Virus record (IMG/VR): IMGVR_UViG_3300028595_000036
Span: 1 to 35,464 of that record
Strand: one strand, 5' to 3'
Source of the DNA: a virus
DNA length: 35,464 nucleotides
Below, piece by piece: positions 15,405-25,454 of this stretch (positions are counted from its first letter, which is position 1; each line of letters starts with the position of its first letter). A program made the position numbers and the translations under genes. The notes under the pieces were generated by a model. The model searched no databases. It was not told the DNA's origin and worked only from the letters and a program-made list of their open reading frames with translations.

Positions 15405-15410
15405 TTCTTT

Positions 15411-15483
15411 ATTGGAGTGGTCTAGTGTGTAGGCCACGTGCGTTTGTAGCACGGGATCGTGGGTTCGATTCCCACCTCCGCTA
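15411..15483 (+). tRNA. tRNA-Gln(UUG)
   Basis: Anticodon arm CGTGC-GTTTGTA-GCACG gives anticodon TTG. T arm GTGGG-TTCGATT-CCCAC is perfect. The acceptor stem ATTGGAG/CTCCGCT has one mismatch at the second pair. Position 37 is T, unusual. No CCA is encoded. Confidence 0.8.
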
Positions 15484-15548
15484 TAATCACCCTTTCAGGC
15501 GAGTAGGTAAGTTATAGGCAGACCTATACAGCCATGACGGGGTTAATT
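15484..15548 (+). other. Short structured spacer between tRNAs, possibly a degenerate tRNA
   Basis: Contains TATAGG-CAGA-CCTATA and a GGCGAGTAGGTAAGT segment like a D loop, but no normal T arm. It is not a functional tRNA by eye; it could be a decayed one. Confidence 0.3.
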
Positions 15549-15633
15549 GGAAGGTTGCCTGAGCGGCTAAAGGAGGGGATTGCTAATCCTTGGGTATGCA
15601 AGTGCCCCGTGGGTTCGAGTCCCACACCTTCCG
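15549..15633 (+). tRNA. tRNA-Ser(GCU)
   Basis: Acceptor GGAAGGT/ACCTTCC, discriminator G, anticodon loop TTGCTAA, long variable arm typical of class II tRNA-Ser, T arm GTGGG-TTCGAGT-CCCAC. Confidence 0.92.
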
Positions 15634-15639
15634 TTTTTT

Positions 15640-15712
15640 GCACCGATAGCTCAATTGGTAGAGCTACCGACTTGTAATCGGTAGGTTAAGGGTTCGATTC
15701 CCTTTTGGTGCT
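15640..15712 (+). tRNA. tRNA-Thr(UGU)
   Basis: Acceptor GCACCGA/TTGGTGC, D arm GCTC...GAGC, anticodon stem ACCGA-CTTGTAA-TCGGT with anticodon TGT, T arm AAGGG-TTCGATT-CCCTT. Confidence 0.92.
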
Positions 15713-15717
15713 TTTTT

Positions 15718-15790
15718 AGTGGGGTAGAAAAGAGGTTAATTTGCTTGGTTCATATCCAAGAGATCGTGGGTTCGACTCCCACCCCCACCA
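15718..15790 (+). tRNA. tRNA with CAU anticodon (Met, or Ile2 if modified)
   Basis: Anticodon arm CTTGG-TTCATAT-CCAAG, T arm GTGGG-TTCGACT-CCCAC, acceptor AGTGGGG against CCCCACC with an A-C mismatch at the first pair and discriminator A. The D stem is weak. The first-pair mismatch is reminiscent of initiator tRNA. Confidence 0.82.
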
Positions 15791-15793
15791 TAG

Positions 15794-16928: not shown

Positions 16929-17010
16929 ATGACACACCAATTTTCTAATATTTTTCTCATTGTTACTATATGACACACATAAAAATTAGTTTTGTATCTT
17001 AATGACACAC
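16929..17010 (+). repeat. Three ATGACACAC repeats upstream of a sigma-54 promoter
   Basis: Copies at 16929-16937, 16970-16978 and 17002-17010, spaced 41 and 32 bp, close to four and three helical turns. The first is part of a TGTCA-AAA-TGACA palindrome. Placement about 75-155 bp upstream of the predicted start fits binding sites for a sigma-54 activator. Confidence 0.7.
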
Positions 17011-17056
17011 TACATAATAATTTCCATTTCTTCTATCATTACAGCCTATGTAGAAA

Positions 17057-17073
17057 TTGGCACGCTGATTGCA
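17057..17073 (+). promoter_or_regulatory. Consensus sigma-54 promoter for hsp20
   Basis: TTGGCACG-N4-TTGCA: GG and GC are exactly 12 bases apart, as the -24/-12 elements require. The predicted start is near 17084, 26 bp before the hsp20 ATG. No similar site was found elsewhere in the window. Confidence 0.85.
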
Positions 17074-17109
17074 ATACAGAGAGAAAGATTAAAATTAAAG
17101 GAGTTTGTT

Positions 17110-17484
17110 ATGGCAAAAAATGATTTTAGTACGGAGTTTTTATTGGATGCTTTATTTGGAGATGTTACTATGAGTAGTGGGCATAATGCTGATGTGTTGG
17201 AAAATGATAGTTCCTACACAATCATACAAGACATGCCTGGGGTGAAAAAGGAAGATGTAGACATCAAATTAGAAAGTGGTGTTCTACATGTGGTTGGTGA
17301 ACGTACCAGAGATGATAAGGATCTTCTAATTAAAGGTTCTAGGAAAATGAAATTCACATCAAACTTTAGATTGCCTAGAGATGTAGATACTTCTAGTATT
17401 TCTGCTAATCTTGAAGACGGTGTGCTTAGTATTGTCATTCTAAAGGATGAAGAAAAAGCACCTAAAAAAATTGAAATTAAATAA
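17110..17484 (+). CDS. hsp20: Small heat shock protein, Hsp20/alpha-crystallin family
   Basis: 124 residues from ATG at 17110 with AAAGGAG eight bases upstream. The alpha-crystallin domain runs from about residue 28 (ADVLENDSSYTIIQDMPGVKKED) to DGVLSIVILKDE near 110, with the conserved G-x-L-x-I/V strand. The C-terminus ends KKIEIK, containing an I-x-I motif used for oligomer assembly. The family holds unfolded proteins in a refoldable state. Phage copies are known, mainly in cyanophages, but here the gene is under a consensus sigma-54 promoter with three upstream repeats. It is followed by a strong terminator, so it is a single-gene unit. Confidence 0.92.
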   Translation: MAKNDFSTEFLLDALFGDVTMSSGHNADVLENDSSYTIIQDMPGVKKEDVDIKLESGVLHVVGERTRDDKDLLIKGSRKMKFTSNFRLPRDVDTSSISANLEDGVLSIVILKDEEKAPKKIEIK

Positions 17485-17952: not shown

Positions 17953-17981
17953 TTGACATTTTTTAATTTTTTTGATATTGT
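17953..17981 (+). promoter_or_regulatory. Sigma-70-type promoter for the tmRNA-like RNA
   Basis: TTGACA (17953-17958), 17 bp, TATTGT (17976-17981). The predicted start is within a few bases of the RNA's 5' GGGG at 17993. Confidence 0.8.
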
Positions 17982-17992
17982 TCTTTTCATAC

Positions 17993-18107
17993 GGGGATGA
18001 AATGGTTTCGACTATATAACCTAAGAGCGAAAGGCCCATGCAGAAGCTCAGTCTATCTATATGGTAGGTGGTTATATAACATTTGGGTTCGACTCCCAAC
18101 ATCTCCA
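17993..18107 (+). ncRNA. 115-nt tmRNA-like RNA without a tag reading frame
   Basis: The 5' end GGGGATGAAATGGTTTCGAC and the 3' end TTGGGTTCGACTCCCAACATCTCCA match the ends of tmRNA. The acceptor stem GGGGATG/CATCTCC is complete, with a G-U at the third pair and discriminator A, the alanine identity set. The T arm TTGGG-TTCGACT-CCCAA is perfect and abuts the acceptor. A 9-bp P2-like stem TATATAACC/GGTTATATA (18013-18021, 18070-18078) closes a 48-nt insert with GAGC/GCTC and CTATC/GGTAG hairpins. Normal tmRNA is about 350 nt with pseudoknots and a tag ORF ending in Ala-Ala; none of that fits here. CCA is not encoded. It is co-oriented with the following genes, with no terminator after it. Confidence 0.8.
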
Positions 18108-23544: not shown

Positions 23545-25240
23545 ATGGAGAATAAAATGGAAATAAAAGAGTGTTCAAAAATATATAATACAAAATCATC
23601 GAAAGTGTATAGTTGTCAATATCATGTAATTTTCTCACCTAAGTATAGACGAAGTGTGCTAATCAATGGTATTGATAATAGATTCAAAGAAATTGTATTT
23701 TCTTTAACCGAAGATTTTCCATTTTCCATAATAGACATGGAGGTGATGCCAGATCATGTACATCTACTAATTGATTGCGATCCTGATTTCGGTATAGGTA
23801 ATGTAGTAAAAAAGATAAAAGGTCGGTCATCTCACATATTGAGAAACGAATTTCCAGAATTAAGAAGAAAATTGCCATCTCTGTGGACTAGAGGCAAATT
23901 TATATCTTCTGTTGGGTCAGTATCTTTAGAAGTTGTAAAGAAATATATCGAGGATCAAAAAGGCGTATAATGGATAATGTAAGAAAACAAACTAAATTAA
24001 ATACAATAAAAAAACGAAAATCCCAAATATGCAAAGCATATAAAATAAAAGTAGATAGATCAAGATTGAACAAAGAACAAAAGACTTGGCTTAGAATGAT
24101 ATTTATAGAAGCTAAATGGTTATATAATCACATTTTATCACAAGAAGATATTTTTAAACACAATACAAAAGAAAAAACTATTTCTAAGTTAAACAAAGAT
24201 AGAGAAAAAGAGGATATTGAGTTAAAGTTTATTACAGCCCAGATGAAACAGGGAATTCATGAAAAGATTAAATGGAGCATTAAGGGACTTTCTGCTAAAA
24301 AGAAAAAAGGTTCAAATGGTATAGGTAAGTTAAAGTTTAAATCAGAAGTTAATTGTGTTCCTTTGAAGCAGTATAATGTGTCTTACAAAATATTGGATAA
24401 AAAGAACATAAAATTGCAAGGATTAAAGAAACCTATATATTGTTTAGGTTTACAGCAAATTCCAGAGGGATCAGAGTTTGCTTGTGGGAGTATACTCTGT
24501 GTTGGAAATGACTATTATATTACACTAACTACATATCAAGAGAATAATTTAGAATTGGAAAAAACACTAACTCCCATTGGTATTGATTTTGGAATTAAAA
24601 ATTCAATAATTACTTCTAATGGAAGTAAATATGATATAAAGATTAAAGAAAATAATAAACTTAAAAAGGCACAAAAGAACACATCCAAGAAACAAAAAGG
24701 TTCTAATAATAGAAGAAAATCATTAAATAAAATTAAAAAAGAATATAAGAAATTGCAAAATAGAAGGAAGGATAAGGCAAATAAGGTTATACACGATTTA
24801 AAAGATAATCTTGTAATAATGCAAGATGAAAACATTAAGGGTTGGCATAAAGGGTTATTTGGAAAGCAAGTTCAAAATTCAGCATTAGGAAGGATAAAGT
24901 CAGAATTGAAGAAGTCTGAGACTACTATTGTTGTGGATCGTTACTTCCCATCTACAAAATTATGTCCTATCTGTGGGAATAAGGAAACAATGTCTTTAGA
25001 AGAAAGGTCTTTTTCTTGTTCGTCCTGTGGATTTAAACATTCTGATAGAGATGTTAAAGCAGCTTTGACTATCTTAGTTGCTGGTCTATCCATTGGTACG
25101 GAGCGTATCAATGAAATGCCTGTGGAGCCTATAACCGCTACTCTTTGGAAAAGAAATATAGATTTTTATTTTAAAGAACAAGTTGAGGCTATGAAGCAGG
25201 AAGCACAAAGTTTTAACCTTTGTGTAGCTCACGAAGAAAC
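23545..25240 (+). mobile_element. IS200/IS605-family element (ends not resolved)
   Basis: Adjacent tnpA (HUH Y1) and tnpB in the same orientation. A right-end-like hairpin CACAAAG-TTTTAAC-CTTTGTG lies at about 25206-25226, within the tnpB frame. The left end probably lies between 23440 and 23545. Exact cleavage sites cannot be fixed without a related copy. Confidence 0.7.
23557..23970 (+). CDS. tnpA: IS200/IS605 transposase TnpA (Y1, HUH)
   Basis: 137 residues from ATG at 23557 with GGAG six bases upstream. The HUH motif is H67-V-H69 in MPDHVHLLID, and the catalytic tyrosine is Y130 in KKYIEDQKG; the IKGRSSHILRNEFPEL and LWTRGKF segments are standard. Length is close to the 130-150 residues typical of the family. 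TnpA cuts and joins single-stranded DNA at hairpin ends. All catalytic residues are intact. The gene overlaps tnpB (TAATG). Confidence 0.95.
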   Translation: MEIKECSKIYNTKSSKVYSCQYHVIFSPKYRRSVLINGIDNRFKEIVFSLTEDFPFSIIDMEVMPDHVHLLIDCDPDFGIGNVVKKIKGRSSHILRNEFPELRRKLPSLWTRGKFISSVGSVSLEVVKKYIEDQKGV

Positions 25241-25454
25241 GAAAGACTACAACTACTTAATGGAAGATGTTGATGATTATGTGGTCAATGAAATAATTCC
25301 ATTGATATTTTTGAATGTAGAAGACTTGAAACCAATAGAAGGTGGAGCAACAAAAGAATCCTTTAAAAGTTCAACTGATCGAGTAATCGAAAATATTACA
25401 GAAGAGTTTAAAGCAATGACTAAGAATAAAATTTTCCCAAAGGAGTTAGAATAA
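23970..25454 (+). CDS. tnpB: TnpB RNA-guided nuclease with a C-terminal extension
   Basis: 494 residues; ordinary TnpB is about 370-420. RuvC residues are D206 (GIDFG), E287 (MQDENIKGW) and the Asp of SDRDVKAA (359/361). The zinc finger is C332/C335/C350/C353. The family ending EPITATLWKR...EAMKQEAQSF is followed, past a right-end-like hairpin in DNA, by about 70 acidic residues (YLMEDVDDYVVNEII ... KIFPKELE) not typical of TnpB. These may be the in-frame remainder of a phage gene the IS landed in. TnpB proteins are guided by an RNA from the element's right end; here that end lies inside the reading frame. The catalytic residues are intact. Expression from a sigma-28-type promoter is unusual. 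Confidence 0.9.
   Translation: MDNVRKQTKLNTIKKRKSQICKAYKIKVDRSRLNKEQKTWLRMIFIEAKWLYNHILSQEDIFKHNTKEKTISKLNKDREKEDIELKFITAQMKQGIHEKIKWSIKGLSAKKKKGSNGIGKLKFKSEVNCVPLKQYNVSYKILDKKNIKLQGLKKPIYCLGLQQIPEGSEFACGSILCVGNDYYITLTTYQENNLELEKTLTPIGIDFGIKNSIITSNGSKYDIKIKENNKLKKAQKNTSKKQKGSNNRRKSLNKIKKEYKKLQNRRKDKANKVIHDLKDNLVIMQDENIKGWHKGLFGKQVQNSALGRIKSELKKSETTIVVDRYFPSTKLCPICGNKETMSLEERSFSCSSCGFKHSDRDVKAALTILVAGLSIGTERINEMPVEPITATLWKRNIDFYFKEQVEAMKQEAQSFNLCVAHEETKDYNYLMEDVDDYVVNEIIPLIFLNVEDLKPIEGGATKESFKSSTDRVIENITEEFKAMTKNKIFPKELE

Follow-up and report, generated by a model that had tools for sequence, protein, structure and literature searches.

By its sequence anatomy, a 115-nt RNA encoded by a phage is a tmRNA without a tag coding region, consisting of a tRNA-like domain and a capped P2 helix. 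The gene for this RNA, which we term a mini-tmRNA, lies in positions 1–35,464 of the IMG/VR virus record IMGVR_UViG_3300028595_000036; this stretch of 35,464 nucleotides is referred to here as the window, and coordinates given without a locus label are window positions. The window also carries portal, terminase and antirepressor genes together with four tRNA genes. Molecules of this kind are already known, and what the present analysis adds is the size of the class, the covariation of its structure and its fixed alanine identity.

Anatomy and detection of the window RNA

The component parts of the window RNA are collected in Table 1. An initial annotation of this DNA had described an RNA that keeps both tmRNA ends, the third-pair G-U, the discriminator A, a perfect T arm and a P2-like helix, and each of these can be read in the sequence. 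Specifically, the acceptor strands form 7/7 pairs with G·U as the third, the P2 strands form 9/9 pairs, and with the T arm included 21/21 pairs are intact. The segment enclosed by P2 is exactly 48 nt long, in agreement with the proposal that an insert of this length replaces the mRNA-like domain and the pseudoknots, and it is predicted to fold into two hairpins (18025–18049 and 18052–18068). Also as proposed, G3·U70 and A73, which underlie the assignment of alanine identity, are present, and no GCN-started, stop-ended frame is found inside the RNA. The gene does not encode CCA, and position 18107 is followed by TAC.

Table 1. Window positions of the mini-tmRNA, its parts and the promoter-like site
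Feature	Position	Strand	Basis
Promoter-like TTGACA-17-TATTGT, TG before second hexamer, 10/12, ending 11 nt upstream of the RNA	17953..17981	+	position supportive
Tag-less tmRNA (mini-tmRNA), 115 nt	17993..18107	+	R1 55.7 bits, E 2.9e-10; RF00023 43 bits, E 1.1e-17
Acceptor stem 5′ strand GGGGATG, G3 (of G3·U70) at 17995	17993..17999	+	sequence reading, R1
tmRNA-type D-loop region AAATGGTTTCGAC	18000..18012	+	sequence reading, R1
P2 5′ strand TATATAACC	18013..18021	+	fold of 18012–18081, z −2.2; P2 covaries in relatives
48-nt insert replacing tag frame and pseudoknots	18022..18069	+	frame scan, fold
P2 3′ strand GGTTATATA	18070..18078	+	sequence reading, fold
T arm TTGGG-TTCGACT-CCCAA, 5/5 pairs	18083..18099	+	sequence reading, R1
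Acceptor stem 3′ strand CATCTCC (18100–18106) and discriminator A (18107)	18100..18107	+	sequence reading, R1

In terms of detection, the covariance model R1 was derived from 20 other RNAs, with the window RNA left out. The score of the window RNA lies at the low end of the members yet clear of the gap below them, with the window tRNAs reaching at most 25 bits and none of 38 non-member loci exceeding 33 bits. An Infernal search with tmRNA models had been suggested as a check, and the Rfam tmRNA model RF00023, applied to the whole record, aligns from model position 1 to 374 with its middle deleted and scores below its gathering threshold of 47 bits, a threshold reached in 29/30 of the records with other members or host tmRNAs. 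A first cmscan score of 14 bits, obtained on a short stretch, is taken as an artefact of truncation and filters. Neither ARAGORN nor plain cmscan at the Rfam threshold calls the window RNA. Other identities were rejected: the RNA is no full standard tmRNA, given its score under the RF00023 threshold and the 48-nt insert that stands where a tag frame and pseudoknots would be; its parts stand in standard order and RF04321, the permuted two-piece model, gives 15.6 bits against a threshold of 47; and it is called as a tRNA by neither ARAGORN nor RF00005, while both call the four tRNAs at 15410–15791.

The initial annotation had also assigned the RNA a dedicated promoter. A promoter-like site is indeed well placed (Table 1), but sites of this quality are no more frequent than after shuffling (one site versus 2.4 expected), such that position speaks for the assignment and frequency does not. 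Elsewhere in the window, the second gene upstream of the RNA encodes a small heat shock protein (Hsp20; 17002–17484), possibly another protein-quality function, and positions 23970–25454 encode an IS605 OrfB/TnpB-like protein with OrfB_IS605 and Cas12f1-like TNB domains.

A class of phage RNAs with covarying P2 and alanine identity

Three pattern scans of IMG/VR were carried out. The first, which sought a tmRNA D-loop close to a T arm, returned five additional short RNAs of tmRNA-like form whose acceptors match (L004, L010, L023, L025 and L040), its other matches being tRNA arrays; the second, for an acceptor, a D-region GAC and a T arm at 25–55 nt, matched at least 120 contigs, most of which hold an RNA of the mini-tmRNA plan; and the third, with the acceptor unconstrained, gave 63 further distinct matches. 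ARAGORN calls two of all pattern matches tRNAs. Pattern scans and model together yielded 98 further dereplicated loci, nearly all from phages, and R1 finds 99 members scoring 55–85 bits in 100 dereplicated sources. Most members are 75–81 nt long, largely 77–80 nt, placing the window RNA among the longer ones, and an AAAGCC-like stretch before a small hairpin is frequent.

Isolated phages that carry a mini-tmRNA, identified by BLAST with members, include the Streptomyces phages GiJojo, LuckySocke, pSt2308 and BRock, where it sits among tRNA genes, and Pontimonas phage phiPsal1, where it lies just before the major capsid gene; Alone3 gives a partial match. It is annotated as RNA in none of them, and in GiJojo a hypothetical gene, gp44, which is probably not a gene, is annotated over it (L170:1989–2231). 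Several further matches were not accepted. The one in Mycobacterium phage Shandong1 stands beside an integrase gene and is probably an att site, that in Stenotrophomonas phage Marzo is an ordinary 375-nt tmRNA, those in Stenotrophomonas phages QDWS359 (33 bits) and Jojan60 are weak, and those in L173, L067, L136, L151 and L159, which look like 3′ parts of ordinary tmRNAs, were left out of the set.

Two other RNA elements were encountered near members or in related searches. A Pistol self-cleaving ribozyme occurs upstream on the same strand, at about 0.1 to 4.4 kb, in 7/99 dereplicated mini-tmRNA loci (L091:6093–6154, L040:5471–5534, L074:3110–3201, L104:13302–13377, L068:5883–5946, L083:4341–4422 and L126:5916–6012), and among these 99 loci it is never found downstream or on the opposite strand. 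An ARAGORN call of a 324-nt tmRNA in L091, in which the mini-tmRNA is fused to upstream sequence holding this ribozyme, was rejected on reading. In Synechococcus phage S-CAM1, a T arm and 3′ acceptor strand are followed directly by the tmRNA 5′ end (L171:1478–1560; GGGGGTGCCATGGTTTCGAC), and by this order of parts the element is an unannotated permuted tmRNA.

With respect to setting, five instances of the pattern were found across 84,980 species genomes, on contigs some of which are perhaps viral, versus at least 47 viral loci. SmpB is found in none of 42 viral records tested, nor in the window, and RF00023 finds no full-length tmRNA in 27 phage records searched. On these counts and absences, the mini-tmRNA belongs chiefly to phages and would rely on factors of the host. 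Each of the three bacterial assemblies with a mini-tmRNA copy has a separate full-size tmRNA match (368, 388 and 390 nt), and SmpB is present as well in the cyanobacterial assembly. In Cyanobacteria bacterium FACHB-471, whose genome likewise carries SmpB and a full-size tmRNA match, the mini-tmRNA is embedded among 11 arrayed tRNA genes on a contig of 312 kb (L176:7189–7269).

The capped P2 is, as its pattern of substitutions indicates, a maintained structure, because P2 was constrained by none of the searches and yet 5/6 of its model pairs change on both sides. Over the whole structure, 98.3% of cells pair, compared with 42–58% when the structure is slid, and double changes number 508 versus 150 in shuffles. 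The alignment used here was fitted to the model, which favours the structure somewhat, and a smaller MAFFT alignment (A2) agrees.

G3·U70 is the main alanine identity element for alanyl-tRNA synthetase (AlaRS). Since G3 and U70 were forced in two of the scans, their conservation in those matches is uninformative; in the scan with a free acceptor, matches with at least six acceptor pairs have G3·U70 in 57/60 cases and A73 in 59/60. Likewise, the alignment members taken as unconstrained all have G3·U70 (34/34), while four or five different pair types are seen at each of pairs 4, 5 and 6. Selection therefore seems, from this contrast between kept and covarying positions, to keep alanine identity, that is, chargeability. 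Plain inheritance of G3·U70 from tmRNA is a weaker account because so much else in the RNA has changed.

These data also bear on a further reading, highly improbable in our view, in which the insert hides a tag and the RNA functions as a short tmRNA. The window insert does contain one stop-ended frame and very short tags (Ala-Ala) are known in tmRNAs (PMC11915505 / PMC4131195), but that frame is not GCN-started, Ala-started closed frames across the class (31/99) do not exceed the mean of 34.8 in shuffled interiors, and the roughly 30 nt between the P2 strands of the class leave hardly any space for a tag or pseudoknots.

Origin of the window copy

The first 20 and last 27 nt of the window RNA are identical to those of a 310-nt ordinary tmRNA in locus L294, and the first 20 nt are identical in 20 IMG/VR contigs, including some with full-length and permuted tmRNAs. 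Moreover, an insert stretch, CATGCAGAAG, matches the tmRNA motif CAUGCCGAGG at 8/10 positions (0.02 in shuffles), a possible vestige. The window copy, with its two-hairpin cap, may therefore have been reduced independently from a full tmRNA and not be descended from the 80-nt form, with the about sixty conserved nucleotides that bear on its descent being too few to decide.

The initial annotation had itself raised the alternative of a recent deletion remnant of a normal ssrA gene, here one without function. The identity with the L294 tmRNA, the possible vestige and the lack of a known orthologue are what such a remnant would leave; nonetheless, every acceptor, P2 and T-arm pair is intact, a promoter-like site is in place, and the same reduced plan with covarying P2 recurs in many phages. 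We consider this origin improbable for the window RNA. For the class, P2 covariation and the retained G3·U make it unlikely, although for the window copy itself no orthologue with the same insert is known. The suggested comparison with homologues had a corresponding outcome: about a hundred relatives share the reduced plan, and none of those found conserves the 48-nt insert. The insert being unique, the signal of selection comes from the class and not from the window copy itself.

In BLAST searches of phages with the window RNA and its flanking sequence, and of plasmids with the RNA, only T-arm or chance matches came up. The portal protein has only distant relatives (25–27% identity among the matches listed), and the terminase matched two short contigs at 44%. 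With relatives this distant or short, the RNA, flank, portal and terminase searches led to no sister phage that carries an orthologous RNA.

Known systems and candidate function

The initial annotation knew of no form reduced this far; mycobacteriophage DS6A, however, is listed as having a 'TLD only' tmRNA in PMC4131195 and PMC11915505 (citing Mao et al. 2009), and most of the relatives described above are shorter still than the window RNA. Like the window RNA, that of DS6A is a phage gene with standard end order, little beyond the tRNA-like domain and no tag frame; by description, which is the form in which DS6A was compared, the window RNA differs in its extra 48-nt two-hairpin cap. The standard-order ends, 7-bp acceptor, G3·U70, A73, D-loop, T arm and P2, together with the missing tag frame, place the window RNA with CDS-less standard tmRNAs of the DS6A type. 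The 2025 tmRNA database contains nine 'standard, no CDS' genes among 97,179, according to PMC11915505, which also reports two ~65-bp plastid forms from Mallomonadaceae. A description of the wider phage class was not found in the open-access literature, the search lying outside most subscription journals.

Standard tmRNA (RF00023) has in common with the window RNA both ends, G3·U70, A73, the D-loop, the T arm and P2, whereas the window RNA has no tag frame or pseudoknots and is 115 nt rather than 230–400 nt long. Mitochondrial tmRNA (RF02544) and the Mallomonadaceae plastid forms (PMC11915505) also have no tag frame, but these are organellar genes found alongside an SmpB, either their own or a nuclear one, and are believed to assist rescue, whereas the phage RNA comes without an SmpB of its own; mitochondrial tmRNA is, in addition, usually permuted. 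Laboratory TLD fragments, such as a 59-nt T. thermophilus TLD closed by UUCG (PDB 2CZJ, PMC3929946), have the same cut through P2 and a small-loop cap and bind SmpB. Such fragments are engineered, whereas the phage RNAs are natural and have a longer, covarying P2.

Building from this anatomy and these analogues, we propose, at about even confidence, that the mini-tmRNA is an alanylated, SmpB-bound competitor of host tmRNA at stalled ribosomes that lowers trans-translation in infection. The steps beyond the anatomy are ones that we infer. The RNA would be transcribed, trimmed by host tRNA-processing enzymes, completed with CCA and charged with alanine by host AlaRS, and host SmpB and EF-Tu would bind the charged form. 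The Ala-RNA·SmpB·EF-Tu complex would then go into the empty A site of a stalled ribosome, as TLD·SmpB·EF-Tu is known to bind and enter stalled ribosomes (PMC3929946, PMC3968760), and would offer no resume codon. Rescue could not proceed, because the mini-tmRNA has none, and competition for SmpB and stalled ribosomes would leave less trans-translation during infection. A trans-translation block, an SmpB decoy and addition of a single Ala had all been put forward by the initial annotation, and these are the right candidates.

According to PMC4131195 (citing Mao et al. 2009), E. coli tmRNA is strongly inhibited by a DS6A-like molecule regardless of whether this can be charged, perhaps because SmpB is titrated, and PMC11915505 restates the inhibition. 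This precedent would also suit a pure sponge that ties up SmpB (or AlaRS/EF-Tu) without ribosome entry and without any need for charging. An inhibition independent of chargeability nevertheless leaves the conserved G3·U unexplained, and G3·U70 and A73 are retained in members where no search required them while neighbouring pairs covary; a pure sponge is in our judgment rather unlikely.

Charging, which appears to be selected, would equally suit a template-free addition of alanine, in which Ala-mini-tmRNA·SmpB extends stalled chains by one or several Ala, providing a crude tail or a release step. In vitro, SmpB and a TLD fragment make polyalanine with no mRNA present (Shimizu and Ueda 2006), and a ribosome can accommodate two SmpB molecules (Shimizu and Ueda 2006 / Kurita 2007), both as cited in PMC3929946. 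We found no in vivo precedent, however, and the DS6A-like molecule is reported as an inhibitor, so that we hold such a tailing role to be doubtful. By analogy with the in vitro reaction, many unrelated phages might use a charged TLD-only tmRNA in turning trans-translation into template-free alanine tailing, a broader proposal that we likewise think improbable. Blocking and tailing share all steps up to peptidyl transfer.

Taken together, these observations extend tag-less phage tmRNA from one named phage and nine database genes to at least 98 further dereplicated examples. The fixed G3·U predicts that the mini-tmRNA must be charged to work, and therefore that its action would involve the ribosome and go beyond that of an SmpB sponge. 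If members act like the DS6A-like molecule in E. coli, interference with ribosome rescue would be a common phage strategy, one that could be tested with the cultured Streptomyces phages that carry a mini-tmRNA.
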